64,000 nucleotides of DNA from an uncultured Caulobacterales bacterium (GTDB lineage Bacteria; Pseudomonadota; Alphaproteobacteria; Caulobacterales; Caulobacteraceae): the NCBI GenBank assembly GCA_903900155.1, contig CAIUMD010000060.1, forward strand, positions 1-64,000, written 5' to 3'. The notes under the pieces are model-generated. The model was not told the origin of the DNA. It saw only the letters and a program-made list of their open reading frames with translations, and did not search any database. Shown in pieces: positions 21,161-62,757 of this stretch. Numbering within the stretch: the first letter of the stretch is position 1; every line of letters starts with the position of its first letter. Position numbers and translations under genes: made by a program.

Positions 21161-21166
21161 GTGTTG

Positions 21167-23214: not shown

Positions 23215-23231
23215 AATACATTGGCCTCCCC

Positions 23232-38964: not shown

Positions 38965-38978
38965 GGATGGAGTTTGGA

Positions 38979-40574: not shown

Positions 40575-41926
40575 CCTTTCCGATGACGCGCCGCGTGGCG
40601 CTGGCCGGCATCGCGGCGGCTCCCGCCGTCGCGCGAGCCGCGACGCCGGCGACCGCGACCTACGCCCTGGTCCCCGACATCGTGGTGGCCAAGGACGGCT
40701 CGGGCCAGTTCAGCACGATCCAGGCGGCGCTGAAGTCGATCGCCCCCGACAATCGCGAGCGCAAGGTGATCCTGGTCCGCAACGGCTTCTACGACGAGGC
40801 CGTGCGGATCGACGCACCCTACGTGACCCTGCGGGGCGAGAGCCGGCTGGGCGTGCGCCTGCAAGCCCATCGTCCCGCCAACGAGACCAAGGACGAGATC
40901 GGCCAGGGCGTGGTCAATATCGGGCCGACCGCCCACGACTTCGTCCTCGAGCACATGACGGTGCACAACACCGTCACCGTCGCCGGTCCCCACGCCTTCG
41001 CGGTGCTGGGCCGGGGCGATCGGACGATCATCCAGGACGCCGACCTCTTGAGCCTGGGCGCCGACACCCTGGCGCTGTGGCGGACCGACAAGTCCAAGGC
41101 CGAGATGGGCCTGTCCGAAGCGCCGGGCGCCACGCCGCTCAGCCCCGACGGTGGGCGCTATTATCACACCGACCTGCGGATCACCGGCGCGGTGGACTTC
41201 GTCTGCCCGCGCGGCTGGTGCTTCATGTCCAACTCCGAGATCGTCCAGATCTATCCCCGCGCCGAGGCCGCCGTCTGGCACGAGGGCAAGGGTAACGCCG
41301 ACAAGAAGTTCGTCATGAAGGGCTGCACGTTCGACGGCCCGCCGAACTTCTATCTGGGCCGCCATCACCGTGACGCGCAGTTCTATTTCCTGGACTGCGC
41401 CTTCTCCGAGCGGATGCGCGACAAGCCGACCTATCAGGTGATCTACCCGCTGGACGGCGGGACCCCCAGTCCGGCCGACATGGAACGCAACCGCGTCGCG
41501 GCCGCCGAAACCCAGTGGGGCGAGCGCCGCTATTTCAGCAACAGCCACCGCACGGGCGGCGACTACGCCTGGATGGCCGATAGCCTGAACAAGGCTCAAG
41601 CCGGCAAGATCGACGCGGCCTGGACCTTCGCCGGCACCTGGAACCCCGAACGCACGGATGGTCCGCGCGTCATCGCCGTGGCGACCGAGGGCGGCAGGGC
41701 CAAGCTGACCTTCGACCGCCTGGTCACGGTGAAGGGCGCGCCGGGGCTGGTCTCGGTCAGCGGTCAGTCCAGCAAGTATGCCGAGGGCAGCGGGACCAAC
41801 ACCCTGACTTTCGAGACGGCCGGCGCGCCCGCGCGTCTCGACTTCGCGCAGGGCGTGGTGATCGGCACGGAGGCCGTCGCGAAGACGGCCTTCGCAGCGG
41901 CCCGCCTGCCTACTTCACGTCGATGA
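40571..41926 (+). CDS. Secreted pectinesterase, CE8-like
   Basis: A 451-aa protein with a signal peptide (RRVALAGIAAAPAVARA) and a right-handed beta-helix. Family marks of pectin methylesterases are DIVVAKDGSGQFSTIQAAL, ITGAVDFVCPRGWCFMSNSE (the GxVDF catalytic Asp motif) and FYLGRHHRDAQFYFLDC (LGR motif). It would remove methyl groups from homogalacturonan, giving substrate for the adjacent lyase. Its 3' end overlaps the convergent DUF1593 gene by 17 bp. Confidence 0.85.
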   Translation: MTFPMTRRVALAGIAAAPAVARAATPATATYALVPDIVVAKDGSGQFSTIQAALKSIAPDNRERKVILVRNGFYDEAVRIDAPYVTLRGESRLGVRLQAHRPANETKDEIGQGVVNIGPTAHDFVLEHMTVHNTVTVAGPHAFAVLGRGDRTIIQDADLLSLGADTLALWRTDKSKAEMGLSEAPGATPLSPDGGRYYHTDLRITGAVDFVCPRGWCFMSNSEIVQIYPRAEAAVWHEGKGNADKKFVMKGCTFDGPPNFYLGRHHRDAQFYFLDCAFSERMRDKPTYQVIYPLDGGTPSPADMERNRVAAAETQWGERRYFSNSHRTGGDYAWMADSLNKAQAGKIDAAWTFAGTWNPERTDGPRVIAVATEGGRAKLTFDRLVTVKGAPGLVSVSGQSSKYAEGSGTNTLTFETAGAPARLDFAQGVVIGTEAVAKTAFAAARLPTSRR

Positions 41927-43388: not shown

Positions 43389-43936
43389 GCGCGGATCCTT
43401 TCCCCGTTCGGACCTTTGCGGTCCCGGCGTTCCGGGATCTGGGTCCTCTTCTGGCGCTCGTGCGCCTTGGCTGAGGCAACAGGTACCGACGGCCAAGGTG
43501 GGGGTCAACGCGGATCTCGCGCGGTTCAATCGAAAAGAAAGGAAAACGAAAGTCGCTGTTCCCATCATCTGGGAATGAGCCCTTGGCCTTGAAATTGCTT
43601 GCCATAGACCGTCTTGCAACGGCTTGGCGCGGCGCTTTGAGCCGTCGAAAACCCATTCCTCAGACATATCTTCGGGGCGTTGAATGTTTTCGATTGATTT
43701 CGATTGATATCCTTTGATAACGCTTTTGTTCAGCGAACAGCGAATGCGTTCCCATCCCAGACCTCCTCTCGGGATTGGGGCGCGTCTAGGCGGCGTCGGC
43801 TTCCTTTCCAGCCGACGTCGCCGCTTTCCGCCCGGGCCGTGTTTCCGGGCGTCCAAGACGATGAGGCGCTCGACAGAAGCGTCACGAGGAAACGCAAACG
43901 ACCGCGCCGAGAGCGCGCGGCGAAGGGGAACGGGAA
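43389..43936. promoter_or_regulatory. Divergent control region between DUF1593 and second TonB receptor, with phased 10-bp repeats
   Basis: A 548-bp region with no convincing gene. It contains a perfect tandem pair of TTTCGATTGA at 43688-43707 on the receptor side, and CGAAAAGAAAGGAAAACGAA at 43531-43550 (two 10-bp units, 7 of 10 matching) on the DUF1593 side. The 10-bp period places each unit on the same DNA face. Direct repeats of this kind are usual for DeoR-family operators, and similar ones occur upstream of the sugar catabolic operons at 52620-53019. Confidence 0.45.
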
Positions 43937-46988: not shown

Positions 46989-49352
46989 ATGCGCAAGGCG
47001 CTTCTACTGGCGGTTCTGGCGATGCTGGCCGTGCCCGCGGCGGCCCTGGCCGAGGTCCAGGTCCATGCGGTCGGCAACGTCGTGGAGGTCCGCAACGGCG
47101 CCGACGTCATGCGCCTGACGGTCTGCGCCGACGGCGTGGTGCGGGTGGTGGCCAGTCCCGACGGTCAGGCGGCGGGCTCGTCGCCGCAGCAGCCGTGGTT
47201 CTCCAAACCTTGCGCGCCACAAGCCGGGACCCTGACCGACGCCACAGCCACCGGCACGGGCGTCAACACCGCCGCTGGCGGCGGCACGGCCAAGGCGACC
47301 GCGAAGGTGCTGAAGACCGGCGACCTTCGCGTCTCGATCTCGCTGTCGGACGGAACCCTGACCTTCTTGGCCCCCGACGACCGCATCCTTTTGCAGGAGA
47401 TGGGCGAGCGGCCGCGGATCTATGAGCCGACGACCCTGTCGGATGGCTCCAAGGCCTGGAAGCTCACCGAGCGCTTCCACCCGGCCCTCCGCCAGGGGCT
47501 GTACGGCCTGGGCCAGCACCAGTCCGGACAGTTCAACTACCAGGGCGCGGTGGTGCGCCTGGCTCAGGCCAACACCGACATCGCCCATCCGCTGATGATG
47601 TCGACGCAGGGTTTCGGCCTGCTGTGGAACACCGCCTCGGCCTCGACGCTCGACAATCGCTTTCCGACCGAGCTGACCCTGACCGCCGATGTCGGCCAGG
47701 CCATCGACTACGTCTTCCTGTACGGCCCCGAGTTCGGCCAGGTGGTGGCCAAGTACCGCGACATGACCGGCGCCGCGCCGCTGTTCCCGCGCTGGGCCTA
47801 TGGCCTCTTCCAGTCGATGGACCGCTACGCCAGCGGCCAGGAGTTGCTCGACGTCACGCAGCGATACCGGGATGGCGACGCGCCGGTCGACGTCATCGTC
47901 CAGGACTGGCGGTGGTGGAGCCGCATGGGCGATCCGGAGTTCCGCCCCGACGGCTATCCGGACGTACTTGGCCTCCTGAACACCCTGCGTGAGCGCAAGG
48001 TCCACACCATGCTCAGCATGTGGCCGCTGCTGTCCAAGTCGTCCCAGCTCTACAAGCTGATGGCCGAGCGCGGTTGGCTGATCCCCGGCACGGCGCTGTA
48101 CGACCCGACCAATCCGGAAGCCGCCGATCTCTACTGGTCGCACCTGGGCAGCAAGCTGCTCGACCAGGGCTGGGACTCGTTCTGGCTGGACGGTTCCGAG
48201 CCCGAGCTGCACCTGCCGACCATGGCCGAGACCGACCGCACCCTGAATGGCCGCAAGCTGGCCATCGGGCCGGGCGAGCTCTACGGCAACGCCTTCCCGC
48301 TGGCCCATGTGGGCGCGGTGTCGGACCGCTGGCGCCAGCAGCGCGAGGACAAGCGGGTGTTCATCCTGTCGCGCTCGTCGTTCGCCGGCGTGCAGCGCTA
48401 CGGCGCGGCCTCGTGGTCGGGCGACATCCTGAACGGCTTCCCGGTGTTCCAGCGCCAGATACAGGGCGGGCTGAACTTCGCGCTGTCGGGCATGCCGTAC
48501 TGGACCACCGACATCGGCGGCTATTATGGCGGGGTGCTGGACAACCCGCCGACCGGCCCCGCGACCACCAATCCGGCGTTCCAGGAGCTGTATGTCCGCT
48601 GGTATCAGTTCGGCGTCTTCAACCCGCTGTTCCGCACCCACGGCAAGCGCGCGAACAACCGCAACGACCTCTTCGCCTATGGCGACAAGACGCCGATCCT
48701 CCTGGACTACGACCGGCTGCGCTATCGGCTCATGCCCTACATCTACGGCCTGGCCTGGCGGGTCACCGACAAGGCCGACACCATCATGCGGCCGCTGGTC
48801 ATGGACTGGCGGACCGACGAGCGGACTTGGAACATCGGCGACCAATTCCTGTTCGGGCCGTCCCTGATGGTTGCGCCGGTGATGAACGCCGGCCAGCGCT
48901 CGCGGTCGGTGTTCCTGCCGGGCGCGGCGGTCTGGTACGACTTCTGGACCGGGAAGAAGCTGGCCGGTGGGCGGTGGATCGACGCCGCCGCGCCGCTGGA
49001 GAAGATTCCGCTCTATGCGAAAGCCGGAGCGATCCTGCCGCTGGGCGGGGCGGTGAACTACGCCGGCCAGGACCCGCAGGGACCGCTGGAGCTGCGGATC
49101 TACGCGGGCGCGGATGGGGCGTTCGAGCTCTATGACGACGCCGGCGACAGCTACGCCTACGAGCGCGGCGAGCGGGCGGTGACGCCGCTGGCCTGGAGCG
49201 ACGGCGCGCGGACGCTGGCGATAGGGGCGCGGGTGGGGCGCTTCCCGGGGATGGTCAAGGACCGGGCGTTTAAGGTGGTGCTGGTGGATGGCGGCCGTGA
49301 GCGGGTTAAGACGGTGCGCTACGACGGGCGTGCGCTTGAGGTGACGTTCTAG
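46989..49352 (+). CDS. Secreted GH31 alpha-glycosidase (alpha-xylosidase/alpha-glucosidase type)
   Basis: A 787-aa enzyme with a signal peptide (LLLAVLAMLAVPAAALAE). The N-terminal beta-sandwich is followed by the GH31 barrel: FPRWAYGLFQSMDRY, VIVQDWRWW, nucleophile Asp401 in FWLDGSEPEL, SRSSFAGVQRYGAASWSGDI, TTDIGGYYGG and FRTHGKR; a C-terminal beta domain has FLPGAAVWYDFWTG. The WLDGSEPE form and VQDWRWW are closer to bacterial alpha-xylosidases than to starch maltases. It follows the second TonB receptor across a hairpin. Confidence 0.87.
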   Translation: MRKALLLAVLAMLAVPAAALAEVQVHAVGNVVEVRNGADVMRLTVCADGVVRVVASPDGQAAGSSPQQPWFSKPCAPQAGTLTDATATGTGVNTAAGGGTAKATAKVLKTGDLRVSISLSDGTLTFLAPDDRILLQEMGERPRIYEPTTLSDGSKAWKLTERFHPALRQGLYGLGQHQSGQFNYQGAVVRLAQANTDIAHPLMMSTQGFGLLWNTASASTLDNRFPTELTLTADVGQAIDYVFLYGPEFGQVVAKYRDMTGAAPLFPRWAYGLFQSMDRYASGQELLDVTQRYRDGDAPVDVIVQDWRWWSRMGDPEFRPDGYPDVLGLLNTLRERKVHTMLSMWPLLSKSSQLYKLMAERGWLIPGTALYDPTNPEAADLYWSHLGSKLLDQGWDSFWLDGSEPELHLPTMAETDRTLNGRKLAIGPGELYGNAFPLAHVGAVSDRWRQQREDKRVFILSRSSFAGVQRYGAASWSGDILNGFPVFQRQIQGGLNFALSGMPYWTTDIGGYYGGVLDNPPTGPATTNPAFQELYVRWYQFGVFNPLFRTHGKRANNRNDLFAYGDKTPILLDYDRLRYRLMPYIYGLAWRVTDKADTIMRPLVMDWRTDERTWNIGDQFLFGPSLMVAPVMNAGQRSRSVFLPGAAVWYDFWTGKKLAGGRWIDAAAPLEKIPLYAKAGAILPLGGAVNYAGQDPQGPLELRIYAGADGAFELYDDAGDSYAYERGERAVTPLAWSDGARTLAIGARVGRFPGMVKDRAFKVVLVDGGRERVKTVRYDGRALEVTF

Positions 49353-49370: not shown

Positions 49371-50834
49371 TTAGAGCATCGCTCGGCGCAGGGCGTCCTG
49401 CCAGCGCGCCACCGTCGCCTCACGCACCTCAACGCTCATCGCCGGCGTGAACGTCCGCTCGGCCGGGCGCACCGGCGGCGCCTTGATCCCCATGCCCTCG
49501 GCCGCCAGCCGCGCCGCGCCCAGGGCGCTGAGTTCGGCCGCGTCGGCGCGGACGACAGGGCGGTCGATCAGGTCGGCCAGCAGCTGCATCAGGACGTCGT
49601 TGCGCGAGGCGCCGCCGTCGACGTTCAGGGCCGGAAGATCGCCATGCAGGTCGGCCTGCATGGCCATGAACACGTCGTGGATCTGCAGCGCTACCGCCTC
49701 CAGCGCCGCGCGGGCCAGGTGGGCGGGCGTCGTGCCCAGGTTCATGCCGCTGACCAGCCCCCGCGCCTCGTCGCGCCAGTGCGGGGCGCCCAGGCCGGCC
49801 AGGGCCGGGACCAGGGCGACGCCGCCGCTGTCGGGGACGGTGAGGGCCAGGTCCGTCAGGGCCAGCTCGTCGCGCAGGCCCAAGAGCTTGGTCGCAAACG
49901 CCACCGTATGGCCCGAGACCGAGATATTGCCTTCCAGCGCATGCAGCGCGCCGCCGGCCCGGCTCCAGGCGATGGTGCTGGAGAGGCCATGCGCCGACCA
50001 GATCCGCGCCTTGGTCACCGTCATCAGCGACGAGCCGGTGCCGCAGGTGGCCTTGATCCGGCCAGGACCATCGAGGCCGTGGCCGTAGAGGGCGGCGTGG
50101 GAGTCGCCCATGGCCGCGTGGATCGGCACGCCGCCGGGCAGGGTGGTCGCGCCGCTGGCGGTCTCGCCGAACAGGGCGTCCGAGGCGCGGATCTGCGGCA
50201 GCGCCTCCAGCGGGATGTCGAACAGCCGCGCCATCTCCGGGTCCCAGGCCAGGCTGGAGAGGTTCATCAGCTGAGTGCGCGAGGCGTTGCTGTGGTCGGT
50301 GGCGTGGGTCGCGCCGCCGGTCAGGTTCCACAGCAGCCAGGCGTCGATCGTGCCGGCCTTCAGCTGGCCCCGCGCGGCGCGGGCGCGGCCGTCCTCCGCA
50401 TGGTCCAGCAGCCACGAAAGCTTGCCGGCCGAGAACATGGGATTCAGCGTCAGGCCCGTGCGGGCGATGGCGTCGGGCTCGTAGCCGTCGGCCTTCAGCG
50501 CCTCGCAGCGCGGGGCCGAGCGGCCGCATTGCCAGATCACGCACGGACCGACCGGGCGGCCGGTCGCGGCGTCCCACAGCACCACGGACTCGCGCTGGTT
50601 GGAGAGGCCGAGCGCGTCGACCGGCAGGCCCATGGCGACGATCTCCTCGGTCACGCCGGCGACGCTGGCCCAGATGTCGTCGGCCGAAGACTCCGCCCAA
50701 CCCGGCTGGGGATAGCGCACCTGCGTCGGGCGCGAGGCCTGGGCCAGGATCTCGCCCTCGGGGCCGACCAGCACCGCCTTGGTGTTGGTGGTGCCCTGGT
50801 CGATCGCCAGAATCGCCCCAGGAGTCATGGTCAT
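49371..50834 (-). CDS. FGGY-family sugar kinase, candidate D-apulose kinase
   Basis: A 487-aa kinase of the glycerol kinase branch: phosphate loop AIDQGTTNTKAVL, SNQRES, WQCGRSAPRC, catalytic Asp in MGDSHAALYGHG, ATCGTGSSLM, and LNVDGGASRNDVLMQ. It overlaps the transketolase C-terminal subunit by 4 bp and is third in that operon. Glycerol kinase normally has WQDRR, where this protein has WQCGR, and true glpK clusters with glpF/glpD, which are absent; a different ketose or polyol is likely. In the D-apiose pathway a FGGY enzyme phosphorylates D-apulose before a split transketolase, fitting this context. Confidence 0.8.
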   Translation of the reverse strand: MTMTPGAILAIDQGTTNTKAVLVGPEGEILAQASRPTQVRYPQPGWAESSADDIWASVAGVTEEIVAMGLPVDALGLSNQRESVVLWDAATGRPVGPCVIWQCGRSAPRCEALKADGYEPDAIARTGLTLNPMFSAGKLSWLLDHAEDGRARAARGQLKAGTIDAWLLWNLTGGATHATDHSNASRTQLMNLSSLAWDPEMARLFDIPLEALPQIRASDALFGETASGATTLPGGVPIHAAMGDSHAALYGHGLDGPGRIKATCGTGSSLMTVTKARIWSAHGLSSTIAWSRAGGALHALEGNISVSGHTVAFATKLLGLRDELALTDLALTVPDSGGVALVPALAGLGAPHWRDEARGLVSGMNLGTTPAHLARAALEAVALQIHDVFMAMQADLHGDLPALNVDGGASRNDVLMQLLADLIDRPVVRADAAELSALGAARLAAEGMGIKAPPVRPAERTFTPAMSVEVREATVARWQDALRRAML

Positions 50835-51778
50835 CGCGCCAGGAGGTCCCGGGCGGCGTCAGCGATGCCGGCGGCGGTCAGGCCGTAGCGCTCCATCAGG
50901 AACTCGGCCGAGCCGGTGGGCAGGAAGCCGGGGAAGCCCAGGATCCGCATCGGGCAAGGGGACTGGGTCGCCAAGACCTCGGCCACCGCGCCGCCCAGGC
51001 CGCCCTTCACCGAGTGCTCCTCGACCGTGATCACCGCGCCGGTCTTGGCGGCGTCCAGGATGGCGGGCTCATCAAGTGGGGTCAGGGTGGCCATGTTGAT
51101 CACCTTGGCCTGCACGCCCTCGGCCGCCAAGGCCTCGGCGGCGGCCAGGGCGCGCCAGACCATGGTCCCGTTGGCGATGATGGCGACGTCGCCGCCCTCG
51201 CGCAGGGTCTCGGCCTTGCCGATCTGGAAGCGCTCGGCGGTGTGCTGGAGCGCCGGCACCGGCATGCGGCTGATGCGGATGAACACCGGGCCGTCCAGGG
51301 CGGCGGCGGCCTTGATCGCCTCGCCGGTCTCCCAGGGATCGGAGGGCACGACGACGGTCAGATTGGCCATCGGCCGCAGCCAGGCCAGGTCCTCGATCGA
51401 GTGGTGGGTGGGGCCAAGCTCGCCATAGGCGATGCCGCTGGAGATGCCGCATAGCTTCACATTGGCTTGCGAATAGGCGACATCGGCCTTGATCTGCTCC
51501 AGCGCCCGGCCGGTCAGGAAACAGGCCGCGCCACTGACGAACGGCACCTTGCCGCCGTTGGCCAGGCCCGCGCCGACGCCGATCATGTTCTGCTCGGCGA
51601 TGCCGACATTGATGAGCCGCTCGGGGAATTTCTTGCGAAAGCCGCCCAGCTTGCTGGAGCCGACGCTGTCATTGACCACGGCGACGATCCGCGTGTCCGC
51701 CTCGGCCAGGGCCTCCAGCGTCGCGACATAGGCCTCGCGGCAGTCGAACAGGCCTGCGGTCTTCTCGGGATCGTTCAC
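50831..51778 (-). CDS. Transketolase C-terminal subunit, candidate D-apulose-4-phosphate transketolase subunit
   Basis: A 315-aa protein comprising the pyrimidine-binding and C-terminal domains of transketolase: LINVGIAEQNMIGVGAGLA (catalytic Glu), FLTGRALEQIK, GPTHHSIEDLAWLR, VIIANGTMVWRALAAAEALA-like segment and GGAVAEVLA. It has no diphosphate-binding domain; that is supplied by the gene just upstream (1-bp gap). It starts with GTG and overlaps the kinase start. Housekeeping transketolase is a single chain, so the split form points to a catabolic pathway. Confidence 0.85.
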   Translation of the reverse strand: MNDPEKTAGLFDCREAYVATLEALAEADTRIVAVVNDSVGSSKLGGFRKKFPERLINVGIAEQNMIGVGAGLANGGKVPFVSGAACFLTGRALEQIKADVAYSQANVKLCGISSGIAYGELGPTHHSIEDLAWLRPMANLTVVVPSDPWETGEAIKAAAALDGPVFIRISRMPVPALQHTAERFQIGKAETLREGGDVAIIANGTMVWRALAAAEALAAEGVQAKVINMATLTPLDEPAILDAAKTGAVITVEEHSVKGGLGGAVAEVLATQSPCPMRILGFPGFLPTGSAEFLMERYGLTAAGIADAARDLLAR

Positions 51779-51779
51779 G

Positions 51780-52619
51780 TCAGGAAAGCTCCGCCAGGGC
51801 TTGGGCGTACTGGTCGGCGTTGGGGCAGCCGTGGTGCCAGCCGGCCTGGTTTTCCATGTACGACACGCCCTTGCCCTTCACGGTCGAGGCGATGACGCAC
51901 AGCGGCCTGTCGCCGGTGGTCTCCAGAGCGGTGATCAGGGCGGCCGGCTCGTGGCCGTCGATCTCGAGGACGTCCCAGCCGAAGGCGCGCCACTTGTCGC
52001 CCAGGGGCTCCAGGCTGACGGTCTCTTCCGTAGGCGCGCCTTGCTGCAGGCGGTTGCGGTCGACGATCAGGGTCAGGTTGGCCAGCTTGCGGTGGCCGGC
52101 GGTCATGGCCGCCTCCCAGCAGCTGCCTTCCTGCAACTCGCCGTCCCCGGTCAGCACGAAGACGCGGAAGTCGGCCTTGTCGATCTGGCCGGCGATGGCC
52201 GCGCCGACCGCGACGGGCAGGCCGTGGCCCAGCGGGCCGGTATTGGTCTCGACGCCCGGCAGATAGGTGCGGCTGGGGTGGCCGTTCAGGCGCGACAGCG
52301 GCCGCAGGTAGGTCGACAGCTCCTCCTCCGGGAAGAAGCCCGCGCCCGCCAGCACCGAATAGAAGGCCCCGGTGCAGTGGCCCTTGCTCATGATGAAGCG
52401 GTCGCGGGCCGGCGCGTTGGGCTGGTTGGCGTCGTAGCGCATGACGTCGAAATAGAGGGCCGCCAGGATGTCGGCCGCCGACAGGTCGCCGCCCGGATGG
52501 CCCTGCTTGGCCTCAAAGATCATCTTCAGCGCGCTGCGACGGATCCAGTTGGCGCGCTCCGCCACATGGGCGGCGCGGCTTTTCAGGTCGTCCGCGCCCT
52601 GGCGGTGAACTTGGCTCAT
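51780..52619 (-). CDS. Transketolase N-terminal (TPP) subunit, candidate D-apulose-4-phosphate transketolase subunit
   Basis: A 279-aa subunit holding the thiamin diphosphate-binding half of transketolase: AKQGHPGGDLSAADILAALY, TNTGPLGHGLPVAVGAAIAG, and the GDGELQEGSCWEA...VDRNRLQ diphosphate/magnesium motif. Length fits split-transketolase TPP subunits. The ATG at 52619 is chosen because the conserved N-terminus begins shortly after; another ATG is 10 codons upstream (52649) and the frame is open to 52763. It is the first gene of the three-gene operon read away from the ABC operon. Confidence 0.85.
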   Translation of the reverse strand: MSQVHRQGADDLKSRAAHVAERANWIRRSALKMIFEAKQGHPGGDLSAADILAALYFDVMRYDANQPNAPARDRFIMSKGHCTGAFYSVLAGAGFFPEEELSTYLRPLSRLNGHPSRTYLPGVETNTGPLGHGLPVAVGAAIAGQIDKADFRVFVLTGDGELQEGSCWEAAMTAGHRKLANLTLIVDRNRLQQGAPTEETVSLEPLGDKWRAFGWDVLEIDGHEPAALITALETTGDRPLCVIASTVKGKGVSYMENQAGWHHGCPNADQYAQALAELS

Positions 52620-53019
52620 CTTCGACGGTCTCGCTGGTCGTCGCGACATGGATCGAGGGCGCGTGCGACCGCGGAAGAGGCGCGTTTTTCGGTCGCGCTC
52701 GATTCCGCCTGGTTCCAGGCCTCCCTCGACGGTCAAACTAGGCGGGGCGGTTTGCGAGTGCAATGGTGAAATGCGTCGTTTTCTTTCGATTTTCTTCGTT
52801 TCAGTTGGCGGGAGAAAACGGAACGCGTGCGTCCAGAAGGGTGTTTTCGTGATCTAAGTCCCTGTCGGCGTGACGGAAATCGCGATCGTCGCCAGAGGGC
52901 AATCCCTTTGCGGTGAGGGCTGATTGACAGCCCCAATCCGCCATGACACGTTTTGCCCGAATTCGAAATCATTCGAAAGTAGCGCCGAAAACGGCGCACA
53001 GAACGGGGAGAGGCGGACC
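52620..53019. promoter_or_regulatory. Divergent control region of the sugar catabolic operons with phased repeats
   Basis: A 400-bp, less GC-rich region with no supported gene. On the transketolase side three TCG triplets are exactly 10 bp apart (52776, 52786, 52796) within a TTTTCTTTCGATTTTCTTCG stretch. On the ABC side ATTCGAAA repeats perfectly at 52961-52968 and 52971-52978. Both fit direct-repeat operators for the DeoR-family protein encoded at 56265. Start positions of transcription could not be read with confidence. Confidence 0.5.
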
Positions 53020-53676
53020 TTGCGGCAGGCGGGCGATCGGCATCGCGGCGATAGCGTGCGACGGACGGGCCTGGTCCTGGTCCTGGTCGCCCTGCTGCCC
53101 GTGGTCAGCGCCTGCAAGGTCGTCCCCATCGCCGCCGATCGCGCCGCCCGCGAACGCCAGGCGGGCAGCTTCGACGCGACGCGGTATGTCGAGGCCGTCT
53201 GGGACGCCCAGGCCGCGCCCTACTGGGACAAGCAGGCCGAGCCGCTGACCCAGCTCACCGCCCAGATCGACAAGGACATCGACGCCGCTGGCGGACGCAA
53301 GGCCGGCGATGGCTCGCCCTGGACTTTTGTCACGCAAGGCGAAGGCCAGGTCACCGCGGTGAAGACCAACGCCCGCGCCGGCGCGGTGACCGTCACGGTC
53401 GACGGCAAGCCGGTCGAGGTGCTGGTCGGGCCCGTCGTGTCGGGCTCGGCCCTGCGCGACAGCCTGCCGTTCGTGACCTTCAACGACTTCTCCAACCAGA
53501 TCGCCTTCGCCGAGGTCGGCGGGGCCCTGACCAAGCGGGCCCTGCGCCAGGCGCGGCCGGCGGCCCAGGGTCTCAAGCCCGGCGACCGCGTGCGCTTCCA
53601 GGGCGTGTTCCAGCTGGGCAAGGCCGGCGATCCCGTGGTCGTCACGCCCGTGCGCCTCGAGCGGGTCGGGGCCTGA
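53020..53676 (+). CDS. DUF2291 periplasmic lipoprotein of a sugar ABC system
   Basis: A 218-aa lipoprotein: basic start, hydrophobic LVLVLVALLPVVSAC with the lipobox Cys, then DUF2291 features (KVVPIAADRAARERQAGSFD, PLTQLTAQIDKD, GVFQLGK ending). DUF2291 proteins are found almost only with ribose-type sugar ABC transporters; their role is unclear. No ATG is available; TTG at 53020 is chosen because GGGGAGAGG lies 7 bases upstream. A GTG at 53056 is the alternative and would leave a shorter n-region. It precedes the ATPase by 4 bp. Confidence 0.75.
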   Translation: MRQAGDRHRGDSVRRTGLVLVLVALLPVVSACKVVPIAADRAARERQAGSFDATRYVEAVWDAQAAPYWDKQAEPLTQLTAQIDKDIDAAGGRKAGDGSPWTFVTQGEGQVTAVKTNARAGAVTVTVDGKPVEVLVGPVVSGSALRDSLPFVTFNDFSNQIAFAEVGGALTKRALRQARPAAQGLKPGDRVRFQGVFQLGKAGDPVVVTPVRLERVGA

Positions 53677-53680
53677 CGCC

Positions 53681-55198
53681 GTGTTGCGGGCGGAGAAGAT
53701 CGGCAAGACCTATGGCGGCGTCACGGCGCTGGACGGCGTCGACTTCGACGTCCGCGCCGGGGCGGTCAACGTGCTGATCGGCGAGAACGGCGCGGGCAAG
53801 TCCACCCTGATGAAGATCCTGGCCGGGGTGGAGCAGCCCACCTCGGGCCGCCTGCTGCTGGACGGCCAGCCGGTGCGGTTCGCTTCGGTGCGCGAGGCCG
53901 CCAAGGCCGGCGTCGGCATCGTCTTCCAGGAGCTGAACCTCTGCCCGAACCTGACGGTGACGCAGAACATCTTCCTGGGCCGCGAGCCGACCAGGCTGGG
54001 CGCCACCGACCACGCCGTCGAGAACGCCCGCGCCCGCGCGGTGCTGGCCCGCCTGGCCCACGGCATCGATCCGGACGCACCGGTCGGCGACCTGCGGGTG
54101 GGCGAGCAGCAGATCGTCGAGATCGCCAAGGCCCTGGTCGAGGACGCCCGCGTGCTGATCCTGGACGAGCCGACCTCGGCTCTCAGCGCCGCCGAGGTCG
54201 AGGTGCTGTTCGGTGTCATCGGCGAGCTGAAGCGGGCCGGGGTGGCGGTGATCTACATCTCCCACCGGCTGGAAGAACTGATGCGCATCGGCGACTACGT
54301 CACCGTGCTGCGCGACGGCCGCCTGATCGCCTCCGAGCCGGCGTCGAAGGTGTCGGTGGCCTGGATCATCGACAAGATGCTGGGCGACAAGGCCCGCCAG
54401 CGGCCGCGCGGCGGAACGCGCCAGGCTGGCGCGGTCGTGCTGTCGGCGCGTGACATCGCCCTGCCGCGTCGCGGCGGCGGCTTCCTGGTCGACCATGTCA
54501 GCGCCGACTTTCGGGCCGGCGAGGTCACCGCGGTCTACGGCCTGCTGGGCTCGGGTCGCACCGAGCTGCTGGAAAGCCTGTGCGGCGCTCGCAACGCCGG
54601 CGGGACCGTGATCCTGAACGGCGAGGACGTCTCGGCCCTGAGCCTGGCCGAGCGCTGCCGCAAGCGCTTGCGCTTCGTGCCCGAGGACCGTCAGCGCGAC
54701 GGCCTGTTCCACAATCTGTCGGTAGGCGGAAACCTTGGCCTCTCCAGTCTGCTGGGTTTCCTGCGCGGTGGCCGGATCAGCGAGGGTAAAGAACGTTCGA
54801 CCATCGCCGACATGATGGCCCGCCTGGGCGTCAAGTCGGCCGGCGTGGAGGCGGCGATCGGTTCGCTGTCGGGCGGCAACCAGCAGAAGGTGGTGATCGG
54901 GCGCGGCCTGATGACCGGGCCGTTGGTCATGCTGCTGGACGAGCCCAGCCGGGGCGTCGACATCGGCGCGCGCGGCGAGGTGTTCGACACCATGCGCGCC
55001 CTGGCCGACCAGGGCCTGGCGGTGGTGTTCGCCACCTCCGACCTGCTGGAAGCCCAGGCCGTCGCGGACCGCGTGCTGGTGCTGGCCGCCGGCCGCCTGA
55101 CCGCCGACCTGACGATCGAACAAGCGACCGAGGCCGCCCTCGTGACCGCCTCCAACGCCGTGCCGCCCCCCGTTTTGTTTAGGGAGACCGCCGCGTAA
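53681..55198 (+). CDS. Sugar ABC transporter ATPase, RbsA/XylG type
   Basis: A 505-aa protein with two fused ATPase domains. The first has Walker A GENGAGKST, signature region LRVGEQQIVEIAKALV and Walker B LILDEPTSAL; the second has the degenerate GLLGSGRTEL loop, SGGNQQKVVIGRGL and MLLDEPSRGVD, typical of the CUT2 family for monosaccharides. It energises uptake by the downstream permease and binding protein. It starts with GTG and overlaps the permease ATG by one base. Confidence 0.92.
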   Translation: MLRAEKIGKTYGGVTALDGVDFDVRAGAVNVLIGENGAGKSTLMKILAGVEQPTSGRLLLDGQPVRFASVREAAKAGVGIVFQELNLCPNLTVTQNIFLGREPTRLGATDHAVENARARAVLARLAHGIDPDAPVGDLRVGEQQIVEIAKALVEDARVLILDEPTSALSAAEVEVLFGVIGELKRAGVAVIYISHRLEELMRIGDYVTVLRDGRLIASEPASKVSVAWIIDKMLGDKARQRPRGGTRQAGAVVLSARDIALPRRGGGFLVDHVSADFRAGEVTAVYGLLGSGRTELLESLCGARNAGGTVILNGEDVSALSLAERCRKRLRFVPEDRQRDGLFHNLSVGGNLGLSSLLGFLRGGRISEGKERSTIADMMARLGVKSAGVEAAIGSLSGGNQQKVVIGRGLMTGPLVMLLDEPSRGVDIGARGEVFDTMRALADQGLAVVFATSDLLEAQAVADRVLVLAAGRLTADLTIEQATEAALVTASNAVPPPVLFRETAA

Positions 55199-56229
55199 TG
55201 GCGACCGAAGCTACTTCCTCGACCGGGCCGGGCGTCGTCGCGGTGCTGCTGAAGCTGCGCGCCCTGATCGCCCTGGCCGTGGTCGTCGCCTTCTTCTCGG
55301 CAGCGGCCCCCAACTTCCTGTCGGCGTCGAACTTCCTGATCATGTTCAAGCACGTGGCGATCACGGCGATCCTGGCGATCGGCATGACCTACGTCATCCT
55401 GACCGGCGGCATCGACCTGTCGGTGGGCTCGATCGCGGGCCTGGCCGGCATGGTCGCCGGGGCGCTGATCCTGAACGGCGTGACGCTGCAGCCGCTGGGC
55501 GTGGTGGTCTATCCCAGCGTGCCGGTGGTGATCGCCCTCGTGCTGGTGCTGGGCGGGATCGCGGGCCTGTTCAACGGGGTGCTGGTCGCCCGTTTCCGCA
55601 TCGCGCCGTTCATCGCCACCCTGGGCGTGCTGTACGTCGCGCGGGGCGCGGCCATGCTGCTGTCCAACGGCGCGACCTTCCCCAACCTGGTAGGCCGCCC
55701 GGACCTGGGCAACGAAGGCTTCCCGCTGCTGGGCTCGGCCTCGATCCTGGGCCTGCCGGTGACGGTGATCCTGCTGGCCGTCATCGCCCTGGTCGCCGCC
55801 TTCGTGGCCAAGGACACCCCCTTCGGTCGCTGGGTCTACGCCATCGGCGGCAATGAGCGCGCGGCCATGCTGTCGGGCGTGCGGGTCGAGCGGGTGAAGG
55901 TCGCCGTCTATGTCATCTCCGGCGTCTGCGCGGCGCTGGTGGGCCTGATCGTCTCCTCCGAGCTGGTGGCCGCCCATCCGGCCAGCGGCGAGACCTTCGA
56001 ACTGTCCGCCATCGCGGCCGTCGTGCTGGGGGGCGCGTCGCTGTCGGGCGGGCGCGGCACGGTCGGCGGCGCCTTGATCGGCGCCTGCGTGATCGGCGTG
56101 CTGGGCGATGGCCTGGTGATGATGGGCGTCAGCGAGTTTTGGCAGATGGTCATCAAAGGACTTGTGATCATCGCCGCTGTCGTGCTCGACCAGCTGCAAG
56201 GACGTCTCACGGCATCGGGCAGGGCCTGA
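55198..56229 (+). CDS. Sugar ABC transporter permease, RbsC type
   Basis: A 343-aa inner-membrane permease with about nine to ten hydrophobic helices. Family motifs are GGIDLSVGSIAGLAGMVAG, FRIAPFIATLGVLYVARGAA, YAIGGNERAAMLSGV and AAVVLGGASLSGGRGTVGG. A CUT2-family partner of the ATPase and of the binding protein at 57122. Confidence 0.92.
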   Translation: MATEATSSTGPGVVAVLLKLRALIALAVVVAFFSAAAPNFLSASNFLIMFKHVAITAILAIGMTYVILTGGIDLSVGSIAGLAGMVAGALILNGVTLQPLGVVVYPSVPVVIALVLVLGGIAGLFNGVLVARFRIAPFIATLGVLYVARGAAMLLSNGATFPNLVGRPDLGNEGFPLLGSASILGLPVTVILLAVIALVAAFVAKDTPFGRWVYAIGGNERAAMLSGVRVERVKVAVYVISGVCAALVGLIVSSELVAAHPASGETFELSAIAAVVLGGASLSGGRGTVGGALIGACVIGVLGDGLVMMGVSEFWQMVIKGLVIIAAVVLDQLQGRLTASGRA

Positions 56230-56264
56230 CCGTGGACGCTGTCTCGCAGAGGAGCAAGAGAGCC

Positions 56265-58072
<1,808 letters not shown>

Positions 58073-58090
58073 TTTCTGGAGTACGCGCTC

Positions 58091-59071
58091 ATGAGCAAGC
58101 TGAAGTTCGGAGCCGGCATCTGGCACTTCGCCACCTATGTCGACCGCTACGCCACCGACGGTTACGGCCCGCCCGTCAGCCTGATCGAGGCCATCGACAA
58201 GGCCGGCCAGGTCGGCGACCTGTCCGTGGTCGACCTGAACTATCCGTTCGTCGATCCGAACCTCTCACTGGACGAGGTCGAGGTCGCGCTGAAGCGCAAC
58301 AATCTGGGGGTCATCGGCATCACGCCCGAGATCTATACCCGCCAGTTCTCGAAGGGCGCCTTTACCAATCCCGATCCGGGCGTCCGCCGCCTGGCCAACG
58401 AAATGTGCAACGATGCGGCCAAGGTGGTCCGCCGCTTCGGCGCCGACTACGTCAAGCTGTGGCCGGGCCAGGACGGCTGGGACTACCCCTTCCAGGTCGA
58501 CCACAAGAAGCTGTGGCGGATGTCGATGGACGGCGTCGGCGAGCTGGCCAGCCAGAACCCCGACCTGAAGTTCGTCATCGAGTACAAGCCGCGCGAGCCG
58601 CGCAACCACATGAGCTACGACTCGGTGGCCCGCACCCTGCTAGGCATCGAGAAGATCGGCCTGCCCAATATCGGCATCCTGCTGGACTTCGGCCACTCGC
58701 TGTACGGCGGCGAGTCGCCGGCCGACGCGGCCCAGCTGGCCATCGACCACGGCCGCCTGTTCGGCATGGACGTCAACGACAACCTGCGCAGCTGGGACGA
58801 CGACATGGTCGCCGGCTCGGTCCACCCGATCGAGCTGTTCGAGTTCTTCTACGTCCTGCGCAAGAACAAGTGGGAAGGCGTCTGGCAGCTGGACCAGTTC
58901 CCGTTCCGCGAGGACAGCGTCACGGCCGCCAAGCTGGCCATCGACTTCCTGAAGGTCATCGACCGGGCGCTGGATAAGCTGGACTTCGACGCCATGCAGG
59001 CCGCCCAGGATCGCCAGGACGCCCTGGAGGCCCAGCGCCTGGCCCGCGCGGCGCTGTTCTCGTCGTACTGA
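58091..59071 (+). CDS. Xylose isomerase-like TIM-barrel protein, candidate D-apiose isomerase
   Basis: A 326-aa protein of the sugar isomerase/epimerase (AP endonuclease 2-like) TIM-barrel superfamily. Likely metal ligands are Glu164 in FVIEYKPRE, Asp199 and His202 in LLDFGHS, Asp227/Asp229 in GMDVND, and Asp268 in WQLDQFPF. Such metal-dependent enzymes interconvert aldose and ketose. It is the last gene of the import operon, and with the FGGY kinase and split transketolase completes an isomerase-kinase-transketolase set as described for D-apiose (apiose to apulose, apulose 4-phosphate, then transketolase). Rhamnose, lyxose or another aldose would also be possible. Confidence 0.78.
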
Positions 59072-59105
59072 GGATGGGACGGCGGTCGCTCAAGCTGCGA
59101 ATCCC

Positions 59106-59130
59106 GGGCGGCGCCGAACGGCGTCCGCCC
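59106..59130 (+). terminator. Strong hairpin between isomerase and GntR gene
   Basis: GGGCGGCGCCG (59106-59116) pairs with CGGCGTCCGCCC (59119-59130) with one bulged T and a minimal loop, 35 bases after the isomerase stop. No T-run follows. It may end or attenuate the importer operon and argues that the GntR gene starts downstream of it. Confidence 0.4.
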
Positions 59131-59229
59131 CGGTTGCGTGGCGGCGAGCGACCGGCCTTCCACCGCGCCCGGGGGGCGGTCGAGATCCGCTATCTGGACT
59201 TCGAACCGGCCTTGCTCCAGTTTCCGGGC

Positions 59230-59928
59230 ATGGCGCTCCGGAATGCAGACGGAGGGCTGGTCGAGGCGCCGATCGCCAAGCGCAAGCTCTCCGACCACGT
59301 CCTCGACCGCCTCAAGGCGATGATCACCTCGGGCGAGTACGCGCCGGGCGAGGCCCTGCCGTCCGAGCGCGGGTTGATGGTCCGCTATGGCGTGGGCCGT
59401 CCGGCGATCCGCGAGGCCATGCAGACCCTGGCCACCCAGGGCTTGATCGCCATCAAGCACGGCGAGCGCGCCCGCGTGCGGCCGCTCAGCGCCAAGGCCG
59501 CCGTGGGCCAGCTGGACCTCGTGGCCCAGCTGATGCTGTCGGCCTCGCCGAACATGGTCGAGAACCTGAAGGAAGCTCGCCGCTTCTTCGAGCGCGGCAT
59601 GGTCCGCGAGGCCGCCGTGAAGGCCGAGGCCGCCGACCTGGAGCAGCTTGAGCAACTGGTTTCCCAGCAGCGCCAGGCCCTGGACGACGCCGGGGCCTTC
59701 ATCGCCCTGGATCGCCGGTTCCACGGCAAGCTGGCCGCCATCTCCCGGAACGCCATCTTCGACGCGGTGGCCGAGGCGATGCTGGGCTGGCTGCACCTGG
59801 AGTTGGACGCCGCCGCGCGCGGCAAGCTGGTCGCGGAGTACGGCCAGATCGTCGACCGCCTGCGGGCTCGCGACGCCGACGGCGCCGAGGCCGCCCTGCT
59901 GCGCGCGCTGGACCTGGCCGAGGCCTAA
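59230..59928 (+). CDS. GntR/FadR-family transcriptional regulator
   Basis: A 232-aa regulator. The winged helix contains LSDHVLDRLKAMITSGEYAP, GEALPSERGLMVRYGVGRPA and IREAMQTLATQGLIAIKHGE; the C-terminal FCD ligand domain has ARRFFERGMVREAA, FHGKLAAISRN and YGQIVDRLRARDADGAEAAL. Length is standard for FadR-type proteins if it starts at the ATG at 59230; an upstream ATG at 59074 would add 52 atypical residues spanning a stable hairpin. No clear ribosome binding site was seen for either. It probably adds a second layer of control to the sugar operons. Confidence 0.82.
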   Translation: MALRNADGGLVEAPIAKRKLSDHVLDRLKAMITSGEYAPGEALPSERGLMVRYGVGRPAIREAMQTLATQGLIAIKHGERARVRPLSAKAAVGQLDLVAQLMLSASPNMVENLKEARRFFERGMVREAAVKAEAADLEQLEQLVSQQRQALDDAGAFIALDRRFHGKLAAISRNAIFDAVAEAMLGWLHLELDAAARGKLVAEYGQIVDRLRARDADGAEAALLRALDLAEA

Positions 59929-60659
59929 AGCTCGCCGCCGATCCGCTCGACCTCGTCGGCCAGGGCCGCCAGGTCGAGGATCTTCAGGGTGCGGCCGCTC
60001 TGGCGGACGATGTTCAGGCTGGCCAGGCGGTTCAGCTCGCGGGTCACCGGCTCGCGCTGGCTGCCGACCAGGACGGCCAGTTCCGCGTGGGTGGGACACG
60101 GCTGGATGACCACCTCGTTGGCGTCGCCAGCCACGGCCGAGCCCATGCGCAAGAGCTCGATATCGACCCGGCAGGCCACCGACACGGCGGTCAGCTCGAA
60201 CAGACGATCGGTCAGGGCGCGGGTCAGGCTGGCCATGTCTTCCAAGAGGGCCCGCATGAAGCGCGGCGAGTCGTTGAACAGGCGCAGCACCAGCCGCTGG
60301 GGCAGGCGCACCAGCCGCACGTCCTCCAGGGCCACGATATTGACCGAACGCGGCAGGCCGTCGATGGCGGCGATCTCGCCGAAATAGCCGCCCGGCGGGA
60401 TGCGGCGATAGCCGACCTCGCGCCCCGAGCGGGCATAGAGGTTGGCCAGCAGCGCGCCTTCCAGCAGCAGATAGATGCCGCCGTCCTCGTCACGGCGCTG
60501 CAGGATCATCTCGCCCTTGCCGTAGCGCAGGTGCTCGACCTGCGGCCCCAGCGCCTCGACCTCGTCGGGGGTCATGTGCCGGAACAGCTTGTTGGCGCGA
60601 TAGTCCTCGGGTAGCGCAAACGTTTGTGCGCGGGCGGAGGATGGCGGAATCACGGTCAT
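59925..60659 (-). CDS. Crp/Fnr-family transcriptional regulator
   Basis: A 244-aa regulator. The cyclic-nucleotide-binding-like domain (residues about 25-140) has GEMILQRRDEDGGIYLLLEG, GGYFGEIAAIDGLPRSVNIV; the C-terminal HTH_Crp helix region has THAELAVLVGSQREPVTREL and LASLNIVRQSGRTLKI. There is no N-terminal cysteine cluster, so it is not an FNR oxygen sensor. The GEIAAIDGLPRS segment resembles cAMP-binding pockets. It is divergent from the TIR protein with only 37 bp between starts. Its end overlaps the GntR gene by 4 bp. Confidence 0.88.
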   Translation of the reverse strand: MTVIPPSSARAQTFALPEDYRANKLFRHMTPDEVEALGPQVEHLRYGKGEMILQRRDEDGGIYLLLEGALLANLYARSGREVGYRRIPPGGYFGEIAAIDGLPRSVNIVALEDVRLVRLPQRLVLRLFNDSPRFMRALLEDMASLTRALTDRLFELTAVSVACRVDIELLRMGSAVAGDANEVVIQPCPTHAELAVLVGSQREPVTRELNRLASLNIVRQSGRTLKILDLAALADEVERIGGEL

Positions 60660-60696: not shown

Positions 60697-62757
60697 ATGG
60701 AAAATCGACAGCGTTACAAGGCCTTTATCAGCTATAGTCACCATGACCGCCAAGCGGCTGAATGGCTCCATCGCGCTTTGGAGCGTTATCGCGCGCCGCC
60801 CAGGTTGTCGGCCAGGAACGGCGCCAGCATCGCGGGCGGCCTGAAGCCGATTTTTCGCGATCGCGACGAACTGAGCGCCGCCGCCGATCTGGGCGAGACC
60901 ATCCGCGACGCCCTGGACCGCTCCGACGCCCTGATCGTGCTGTGCTCGCCGACGGCGGCGACCTCGCGCTGGGTCGACCAGGAGGTCGCCTATTTCCTCC
61001 AGGATCGCGGCCCCGGCGCGGTGCTGTGCGTGATCACCCCCTCGACCCCGGCCGACGCCCCGCTGGACGCCGTGATGCCGCCGGCCCTGCGCGCGGCCCT
61101 GCCCGAGGACGTCGAGCCTCTGGCCGTCGACCTGCGCCCCGACGCCGACGGCAAGCGCCTGGCCCGGCTGAAGATCGCCGCCCGCTTGCTGGATGTCAGC
61201 CTGGACCAGCTGGTCCAGCGCGACGCCCGCCGCCGCCTGCGGGTGATGGCCGCTTTCACCGGGCTGGCCGCCGTGGTCACCGTCGGCATGGGCGCCATGA
61301 CCGTGGCCACCCTCAAATCCCGCCAGATCGCCCGCGAGCAGCGCGACGAGACCGAGGCCCTGGTGGCCTACATGCTGGGCGACCTGCGCGAGCAGCTGGA
61401 GCCGGTGGGCCGGCTGGACGTGCTGGACGGCGTCAGCGCCAAGGTGCTGGCCTACTACGCCAAGGATCGCAGCGACCGCCTGGACGACAAGGCCCTGGCC
61501 CAGCGCGCCAAGGCCCAGACCCTGTTGGGCACGATCCGCGAGCAGCGCGCCGACTATGCGGGGGCCGAGGACGCTTTCCGGCAAGCCGCCGCCACGACCC
61601 ATGCCCTGGTCGAGCGCGACCCGACCAACGGCGACCGCATCTTCGACGAGGCCCAGAACGTCTACTGGCTGGGCTATATGGGTTGGCGCAGCGGCGACCT
61701 GGCCAGCGCCGAGCGTGGTTTCCGGGACTATGCCGCGCTGGCCGACAAGCTGGTCAAGCTGGACCCCAATCGCCCCGAGTGGCGGATGGAGGTCGCCTAT
61801 GCCGCGACCAATCTGGGCACCCTGTACTTCGAGCAGGAGCGGATGGAGGAGGCGCTGGCCGCCTTCCGCCGGTCACTGGCCGAAAAGCGGGCCGCCCTGG
61901 CGCGGGCGCCGCAGGACAAGGCCCGGATCGCCGACGTCGCCAACACCCAGGCCTGGATCGCCGACACGCTGGGCCGGCTGGGCCGCGTGCGCGAAAGCTA
62001 TGACGAGCGCGCGGCGGCGACCGCCCTGGTGAACGCGGCCGCGGCCAAGGATCCCGGCGACAAGCGGCTGGCGGCCAAGGCGGTGGGCACCGAGATGGCG
62101 CTGGCGCGGCTGGAGCTGGACCTGGGGCGGCCCGCGCGGGCCCGCGCCCTGTCCGACGTCGCCTTGCGCAAGGTGCGTGAACTGGCGGCCCTGGATCCGA
62201 CCAATGCGCGCTGGGGCGAGTTCCAGGTGGTCACCCTGCTGGATCGCGTGGACATCGCCTGCTGGTCGGACGACCTGGCCGAGGCGCGCGCCAGCCATAA
62301 GGAGGCCGTCGCCAGCCTGGCCAAGCTGCACGGCGGCGACGTCAAGGCGTGGCGCAGCGACCTGGAAGGACGCCTGGCCCTGCAGGAGATCATGCTGGCG
62401 CGCCGGGCGGGCGATGCGGCGCTGGAGCGCCGGCTGGCCCAGGACCTGCTGGCGGTCATGGACAAGGTCCCGGGCTCGCGCGAGTTGCAGGCCGAGCGCA
62501 TGACCCTGGCGGCGGCCGCGCAACTGGCGGCCGGGCAGGCGTCCCGGACCATCGCGACCCTGGCGCCGAAACTGCCGTCGCTGGCCTCTTCAGGGCGCGA
62601 TGTGCTGGCTCGCGCATACCTTGCGGCGGGCCAGCGCAACCAAGCCGAGAAGATCGTGCGTGAGTTGAAAAAACACGGCTACGCCCATCCTGGCTTCCTT
62701 GCCTTTTGGGCAGATTCCCCCGTAGGTGGAATCTCCGGTCGGGAGGCTATTAAATGA
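60697..62757 (+). CDS. TIR domain - transmembrane helix - TPR protein
   Basis: A 686-aa protein. Residues 5-120 are a TIR domain (YKAFISYSHHDRQAAEWLHR, PIFRDRDELSAAADLG, IVLCSPTAATSRWVDQEVAY); Glu96 in SRWVDQE occupies the position of the catalytic Glu of NAD-cleaving TIR domains. One transmembrane helix lies at about 183-205. Residues 210-686 form helical TPR-like repeats (GTLYFEQERMEEALAAFRRS and similar), which would be periplasmic if the TIR domain is cytosolic. A TIR NADase or signal-generating enzyme gated by an envelope signal is plausible. GGGGGCGGCGA precedes the ATG, and the stop overlaps the next gene by 4 bp. Confidence 0.85.
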   Translation: MENRQRYKAFISYSHHDRQAAEWLHRALERYRAPPRLSARNGASIAGGLKPIFRDRDELSAAADLGETIRDALDRSDALIVLCSPTAATSRWVDQEVAYFLQDRGPGAVLCVITPSTPADAPLDAVMPPALRAALPEDVEPLAVDLRPDADGKRLARLKIAARLLDVSLDQLVQRDARRRLRVMAAFTGLAAVVTVGMGAMTVATLKSRQIAREQRDETEALVAYMLGDLREQLEPVGRLDVLDGVSAKVLAYYAKDRSDRLDDKALAQRAKAQTLLGTIREQRADYAGAEDAFRQAAATTHALVERDPTNGDRIFDEAQNVYWLGYMGWRSGDLASAERGFRDYAALADKLVKLDPNRPEWRMEVAYAATNLGTLYFEQERMEEALAAFRRSLAEKRAALARAPQDKARIADVANTQAWIADTLGRLGRVRESYDERAAATALVNAAAAKDPGDKRLAAKAVGTEMALARLELDLGRPARARALSDVALRKVRELAALDPTNARWGEFQVVTLLDRVDIACWSDDLAEARASHKEAVASLAKLHGGDVKAWRSDLEGRLALQEIMLARRAGDAALERRLAQDLLAVMDKVPGSRELQAERMTLAAAAQLAAGQASRTIATLAPKLPSLASSGRDVLARAYLAAGQRNQAEKIVRELKKHGYAHPGFLAFWADSPVGGISGREAIK

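Follow-up and report, generated by a model that had tools for sequence, protein, structure and literature searches.

Gene content of the locus

The DNA analysed here (the window) comprises the first 64,000 nucleotides of contig CAIUMD010000060.1 of an uncultured Caulobacterales bacterium (family Caulobacteraceae), and this report concerns a locus at 49371-59928 which is probably a complete D-apiose locus of an already known kind. The original prediction, made from the sequence, had placed here a kinase, a split transketolase, an isomerase, a full CUT2 sugar importer of the ATP-binding cassette (ABC) type and DeoR and GntR regulators in two divergent operons. All of these genes were found at their positions, and the gene order and strands confirm the two operons. 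The minus-strand operon reads transketolase N-half, transketolase C-half, FGGY kinase, and the plus-strand operon reads DUF2291, ATPase, permease, DeoR, binding protein, isomerase, GntR. Several probable start codons lie inside the mechanically called open reading frames (ORFs) and were picked by eye, including those of the transketolase N-half and of two neighbouring genes described below (pectinesterase and PF07632).

49371-50834, minus strand: FGGY kinase, predicted apulose kinase (AplK-like), from Pfam, comparison with Escherichia coli SE15 and a tree
50831-51778, minus strand: transketolase C-terminal half, predicted AptB, from Pfam; 44 % identity to E. coli SE15 AptB
51780-52619, minus strand: transketolase N-terminal half, predicted AptA, from Pfam; 46 % identity to E. 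coli SE15 AptA
53056-53676, plus strand: importer lipoprotein DUF2291 (Pfam E-value 2e-50; 37 % to the Rhizobium etli counterpart)
53681-55198, plus strand: CUT2 ABC transporter ATPase (50 % to R. etli)
55198-56229, plus strand: CUT2 ABC transporter permease (60 % to R. etli)
about 56265-57113, plus strand: DeoR-family regulator, with a relative in 52 of 80 isomerase loci
57122-58072, plus strand: periplasmic binding protein with D-apiose as predicted ligand (68 % to structure 5ibq, from R. etli p42f)
58091-59071, plus strand: TIM-barrel (xylose-isomerase-like) protein, predicted D-apiose isomerase, ApsI-like (66 % to structure 3ktc)
about 59230-59928, plus strand: GntR/FCD (NanR-like) regulator (54 % to the R. 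etli p42f NanR-like regulator)

Reportedly, work by Carter and colleagues in 2018 described a D-apiose route via an isomerase, a kinase and a transketolase.

Comparison of the enzymes and the binding protein

When the isomerase was searched against the PDB, it matched 3ktc, which we take to be the D-apiose isomerase ApsI of Pectobacterium atrosepticum, with 66 % identity over 321 columns (E-value 9e-147). The next match was a xylose isomerase (9e-19) and rhamnose isomerases scored near 1e-7, a gap that rules out xylose or rhamnose isomerase identity. The protein is thus no nearer to an enzyme for another sugar, as had been predicted, and it is a putative ApsI ortholog of the D-apiose transketolase pathway. 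The nearest solved structure to the binding protein is 5ibq (R. etli p42f protein, 68 % identity), whose ligand is presumably apiose. It falls in the predicted apiose-binding group expected of a CUT2 apiose importer.

The kinase shares 43 % identity (363 bits) with E. coli AplK and 40 % (361 bits) with E. coli GlpK, and AplK is itself GlpK-like (39 % identity to GlpK). The pairwise scores alone are undecisive because AplK and GlpK are equally close. A tree of 34 rows, including 30 kinases from related loci, placed the window kinase together with the alphaproteobacterial locus kinases and SE15 AplK (98/88), while K-12 GlpK and the second kinase of the genome (C85) stand apart. Glycerol was rejected as the substrate because C85, with 48 % identity, is the closer of the two kinases to E. 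coli GlpK and stands apart from the window kinase in the tree. The prediction that the kinase is not nearer to an enzyme for another sugar is borne out by this grouping with AplK, though the pairwise scores do not separate the two.

A second FGGY kinase lineage on the GlpK side (100/99) was observed in five loci with the same isomerase (L029, L030, L036, L039 and L042; L and G numbers denote our loci and genomes), which suggests kinase replacement.

The adjacent transketolase N and C halves share 46 and 44 % identity with SE15 AptA and AptB, in agreement with the predicted two-subunit enzyme.

Related loci and known systems

A scan of named genomes yielded 361 isomerase relatives, of which 80 loci were kept, and co-occurrence was counted in the locus DNA fetched. 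The kinase is present in 77 of the 80 loci and both transketolase halves in 71. The gene set is not a chance assembly, since the same set recurs in these related genomes. When the neighbours in the 80 loci and the window were clustered (each family named from the Pfam matches of a single representative), a rhamnosidase-like family was found in 26 loci and major facilitator superfamily transporters in 24. A GH140-type apiosidase is present in 16 of the 80 loci (representative L031: PF13204 with an E-value of 5e-103, plus PF12904), and its recurrence beside the isomerase gives independent support for apiose. DUF5060-PF13204-DUF5605 proteins also occur in 18 isomerase loci, several of them without GH140 (representative L047, 11782-13359; also L003, 10985-12586); they are a possible third apiosidase-like family.

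The transketolase route as known from Pectobacterium has the isomerase, the FGGY kinase, the two-gene transketolase and the CUT2 importer with DUF2291 in common with the window. The window differs in its DeoR and GntR regulators, pectin enzymes, TonB receptors and PF07632 gene, and in the lack of a strong GH140 in its genome.

The R. etli p42f cluster resembles the window in the binding protein (68 %), permease (60 %), ATPase (50 %), DUF2291 (37 %) and GntR (54 %). It carries oiaX (3-oxo-isoapionate-4-phosphate decarboxylase, apionate route) and other apionate-type genes, and no isomerase plus transketolase in the stretch shown.

The E. coli SE15 cluster (NC_013654, 572041-582988) resembles it in AplK (43 %), AptA (46 %), AptB (44 %), binding protein (48 %) and permease (58 %). 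This cluster has two short-chain dehydrogenase/reductase (SDR) oxidoreductases, lacks an isomerase gene and is regulated by a protein of a different type (PMC13001218). According to the same source, E. coli and E. fergusonii strains with a cluster of the SE15 kind grew on apiose and K-12 did not; SE15 itself is not among the strains named there as grown on apiose (PMC13001218).

Predicted pathway and source of apiose

The region upstream of the two operons contains the following genes.

35415-38873, plus strand: TonB-dependent receptor 1 (PF00593/PF07715), possible outer-membrane uptake of pectin fragments
38967-40574, plus strand: pectate lyase PF09492 (Pfam E-value 1e-26)
40571-41926, plus strand: pectinesterase (Pfam E-value 6e-17)
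41910-43388, minus strand: PF07632 Sde182_NH-like secreted protein, candidate apiofuranosidase (Pfam E-value 6e-102)
43937-46870, plus strand: TonB-dependent receptor 2 (Pfam)
46989-49352, plus strand: GH31 glycosidase with a secreted-like N-terminus (Pfam E-value 9e-81)

The pectate lyase, pectinesterase, two TonB receptors and GH31 glycosidase had been named as neighbours in the original prediction, and Pfam matches confirmed them; the PF07632 gene was absent from the earlier gene list. We take the pectate lyase to belong to PL10 and the pectinesterase to CE8. Relatives of the pectate lyase lie near apiose genes in L030, L041 and L126, and relatives of the GH31 gene adjoin the kinase in L002, L003 and L184.

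Apiose cross-links rhamnogalacturonan II (RG-II) and decorates apiogalacturonan. Pectin is a plausible source of the sugar, and since the pectate lyase and the pectinesterase adjoin the locus, we infer that a galacturonan bearing apiose (apiogalacturonan or the RG-II backbone) is the likely one.

In the proposed mechanism, the TonB receptors would carry pectin fragments to the periplasm, where apiose would be cut free, and the CUT2 importer (binding protein, permease, ATPase and DUF2291) would take up the freed sugar. The isomerase would then convert apiose to apulose, the FGGY kinase apulose to apulose 4-phosphate, and the two-part transketolase apulose 4-phosphate to xylulose 5-phosphate and dihydroxyacetone phosphate. 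Repression of the two divergent operons at 52962-52978, and of the PF07632/TonB-receptor promoter at 43688-43704, is probably the role of the DeoR protein. The original prediction had all steps in one place. Those from the outer membrane to central metabolism are accounted for in this predicted scheme, and the classical apiosidase GH140 is missing from it.

Several observations weigh against apiose as the substrate. The identities given above for 3ktc and for the ligand of 5ibq are presumed, and no paper on either structure was among the titles listed by a search of the open-access literature. In pairwise comparison the kinase does not favour AplK over GlpK, and AplK stands on a long branch in the kinase tree. 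Transketolase is missing from the fetched DNA in nine of the 80 loci, some of them at contig ends. A relative of the isomerase (68 %) on a plasmid of Pantoea sp. At-9b (L083) lies beside pckA and polysaccharide genes without the pathway, so that the isomerase may have other uses, or the pathway may be scattered there.

By the same chemistry, the locus could act on a different sugar, branched or otherwise unusual, as the substrates of the isomerase and of the GlpK-like FGGY kinase cannot be read from sequence alone. We consider this very improbable, because the isomerase, binding protein, GntR, kinase and transketolase each agree with separate apiose-linked references and a GH140-type apiosidase recurs in sister loci. 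The prediction of a locus for D-apiose is supported by the kinship of these five proteins together with synteny. It is highly likely, judging from these comparisons, that the locus serves the uptake and breakdown of D-apiose, with pectin as the probable source and with substrate, reactions and regulator all predicted. No paper on apiose in Caulobacter was found in the open-access literature (subscription papers were mostly outside the scope of this search).

Operator-like repeat

Three operator-like sites were recorded in the window.

52962-52978, plus strand: operator-like direct repeat TTCGAAATCATTCGAAA, between the two operons in their divergent promoter
52784-52800: operator-like site with one mismatch, in the same divergent promoter
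43688-43704, minus strand: operator-like direct repeat ATCGAAATCAATCGAAA, located in the promoter region from which the PF07632 gene and TonB receptor 2 diverge

The site at 43688-43704 lies 300 bp from the start of the PF07632 gene and 233 bp from the start of TonB receptor 2. The pattern WTCGAARNNWWTCGAAR, drawn from the window and related promoters, has two matches in the whole 4.94-Mb assembly (52962 and 43688) against 0 for the reversed control, a count that is somewhat favoured because the first W was allowed after the 43688 site had been seen. In the first pattern, TTCGAAANNNTTCGAAA, this site has two mismatches. At up to three mismatches, TTCGAAANNNTTCGAAA gave four matches in the window (1.2 expected), and five of 100 shuffles gave at least four. 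The upstream gap of TonB receptor 1 holds no operator-like site (best candidate, five mismatches).

In the 80 loci and the window, 45 motif matches with at most one mismatch were obtained, against one for the reversed pattern. Judged by the printed flanks, 18 lie at the transketolase/DeoR/DUF2291 divergent promoter, five before the isomerase and three at PF07632 genes, and 11 lie inside the ORF called transketolase N; the rest lie elsewhere. Some transketolase N ORFs are overlong, and some of the inside matches may be coding coincidences. No match was seen ahead of a GH140 gene in this set. In L126, an operator match lies 8 bp before the ORF called for the pectate lyase relative. The presumed binder of the direct repeat is the DeoR protein.

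Stretches of 600 bp ahead of PF07632 domains were compared at the same threshold, excluding copies that had less than 300 bp of upstream DNA, lacked the N-terminus or had an upstream sequence identical to that of another copy. The motif precedes 12 of 66 copies (11 of 33 genomes) in isomerase-positive genomes against none of 36 copies (31 genomes) in the others, where genome G271 was counted as isomerase-negative without an isomerase search (dropping it leaves 0/35 copies, and 0/30 genomes if it holds one copy). By genome the difference has p 0.0004, and the reversed control gave 0/102. The remaining 54 of the 66 copies lack the motif. Five of the 12 motif-bearing copies (L131, L132, L174, L180 and L181) are not near the isomerase.

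The PF07632 protein as a candidate apiosidase

The protein encoded at 41910-43388 has 492 residues, a signal-peptide-like N-terminus and the single PF07632 match in its genome (whole-genome profile search). It passes the Pfam cut-off as a member of the Sde182_NH-like family, and its model has a predicted nucleoside-hydrolase fold. D28, D34, D35 and D255 (numbered by the first row of the alignment) are conserved without exception in all 82 rows, and E253 in 78 of them.

To our knowledge, GH140 is the only bacterial apiosidase family. PF13204 matches in 50 related genomes form a strong group (E-value 3e-75 or better) and a weak group (1e-15 to 1e-22). No strong GH140 (PF13204 plus PF12904) was found in the locus or in the window's genome, and GH140 was rejected there since the sole PF13204 match is weak (2e-17) and lies on another contig. 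Proteins of the weak type are a possible second apiosidase.

Of 385 genomes sampled from the same class, four, the window's genome included, have PF07632, with strong matches in two. An even sample of the window's family (249 genomes) has the isomerase in seven and PF07632 in 31; PF07632 is present in 7/7 isomerase-positive genomes against 24/242 of the others (p 2e-7). Among 328 genomes of the Novosphingobium family, the isomerase occurs in 13 and PF07632 in 14 (13 over the cut-off); four of the 13 isomerase-positive genomes have both genes, against PF07632 in 10 of the 315 others (p 0.001). The two genes lie within 20 kb on one contig in 8 of 20 isomerase-positive genomes (G000, G572, G522, G410, G519, G581, G664 and G723), where 0.17 were expected; not all eight are independent and kinship was not removed.

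Fifty isomerase-positive genomes of the 80 loci, chosen mainly by taxonomy, were also compared, proximity meaning 20 kb on the same contig. PF07632 is present in 27 and near the isomerase in 15. Nearby copies occur in 14 of 16 loci with the CUT2 importer against one of 34 without it, and GH140 of the L031 type in the fetched locus DNA occurs in 0/16 importer loci against 14/34 others. GH140 within 32 kb was counted in 2/16 importer loci and 21/34 others, with contig identity unchecked and at least L009 wrong, as its isomerase is on another contig; the count in the fetched DNA is the safer one. Eleven of the 15 genomes with nearby PF07632 have no strong GH140 anywhere; the remaining 4/15 compare with 23/35 of the other genomes (p 0.015, kinship not removed). 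Two of the loci also carry a strong PF13204 protein, more distant in kinship in L030, at 137 bp from the isomerase in L030 and at 17 kb in L041. This division does not hold everywhere: beyond the 50 genomes, PF07632 is absent from the fetched DNA of six importer loci (L058, L062, L068, L075, L079 and L081) and present in that of two non-importer loci (L059 and L070). Strict alternation of PF07632 and GH140 could not be shown: the 80 loci hold PF07632 in 13, L031-type GH140 in 16 and both in none, and chance expects only two to three with both.

The slot between the isomerase and GntR holds a weak-PF13204 protein in Caulobacter RHG1 (L003), a PF07632 protein in G572 and nothing in the window, where the PF07632 gene lies 15 kb upstream of the isomerase. 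On a plasmid of Croceibacterium sp. TMG7-5b, the isomerase adjoins a PF07632 gene and the rest of the pathway is not in the stretch shown; another PF07632 gene lies beside the importer on the presumed chromosome. PdxA, four-carbon acid sugar kinase, DHDPS-like and iron alcohol dehydrogenase genes were seen near the plasmid pair (L185). Alteromonadaceae Bs31 (L134/L135, G666; L039) carries five PF07632 copies on the single 53-kb contig with the isomerase.

Predictions from the sequence and the model led us to propose that some secreted PF07632 proteins are a new apiofuranosidase family under the control of the apiose operon's DeoR-type regulator. It would replace GH140 in many ABC-importer loci of Caulobacteraceae and sphingomonads, and perhaps of a few Actinobacteria (L059 and L070). 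The proposed chemistry is that of an N-riboside-hydrolysing scaffold turned to O-glycosides of furanose apiose. We put forward this joint proposal tentatively, at somewhat less than even chances. With regard to regulation, we think that the window gene belongs to the apiose system as a predicted member of its regulon.

Some observations speak against a link of PF07632 to apiose. Besides the six importer loci named above, two of the 16 CUT2 loci (L003 and L029) and the locus of G735 have no nearby copy. Members of the family are also found in isomerase-free genomes and next to hemicellulose enzymes. On the tree, the apiose-linked copies fall into more than one clade, with 12 changes against 23.7 for shuffled labels (seven partial or duplicate rows were removed before the tree was built). 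The family is probably broader than apiose because of the isomerase-free copies, the lack of a single clade and the importer loci without a copy, and apiosidases would be confined to some of its branches. We also considered a subfamily B as exclusive to apiose loci. It held for 11/11 rows in the first tree and failed in the even sample, where, of four B-type genes (by score), two come from genomes that lack the isomerase and one does not share a contig with it.

It is quite possible, if short of probable, that the core pathway is as described and PF07632 is not an apiosidase, cutting or binding other plant furanosides (e.g. arabinofuranose) and present because this is a pectin locus. The isomerase-negative carriers in both family samples and the importer loci without PF07632 fit this, as do the unlinked copies, with GH43, GH39, GH5 and carboxylesterases among their neighbours (scan of 70 of the 130 listed). 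The family founder, Saccharophagus Sde_0182 (2yhg), is inactive on nucleosides, binds ribofuranose and was proposed as a furanose-interacting module; it has extra carbohydrate-binding domains and no known activity (PMC8910321). The window protein differs from it in lying beside apiose genes and having an operator motif in common with them. The operator upstream of PF07632 in isomerase-positive genomes only, five times far from the isomerase, speaks against other furanosides, as do the proximity in 8 of 20 genomes and the slot filled by PF07632 or PF13204 in different loci.

A lectin-like module that binds or presents apiose and is not a hydrolase would also agree with a ribofuranose-binding founder inactive on nucleosides (PMC8910321). 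This is unlikely, as the four invariant aspartates and the nearly invariant E253 are as expected of an active site, and nucleosides may be the wrong substrate test for the family. Among the open-access papers listed for PF07632, judged by title and start of abstract, none concerns apiose (subscription papers mostly lay outside this scope).

Other features of the window

A Crp-type regulator (59925-60659, minus strand, Pfam) follows the GntR gene. Beside it, 60697-62757 (plus strand) encodes one 686-residue protein with a TIR domain (TIR_2, ThsB_TIR) and TPR repeats. Its PADLOC match is weak (SAVED-TIR model, E-value 2e-5), and it is a possible defence or signalling gene.

An RTX-repeat protein is encoded at 25339-28518 (plus strand). 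The RsaA N-terminal domain is matched by residues 875-1056 of 1059, at the C-terminal end of the protein, which is not the order expected of an S-layer-like protein. The region 20001-24000 shows a dip in guanine-cytosine content (0.621) and contains a tRNA-Arg (21084-21160) and an IS240-type transposase (22455-23144); it may be a mobile element insertion.

Significance

The repeat common to both promoters presents a simple regulon to test. If some PF07632 proteins do release apiose, they would represent a second fold for apiose cleavage, and a function would be gained for a Pfam family whose founder has no known activity. It would also explain how apiose users without GH140 obtain the sugar.

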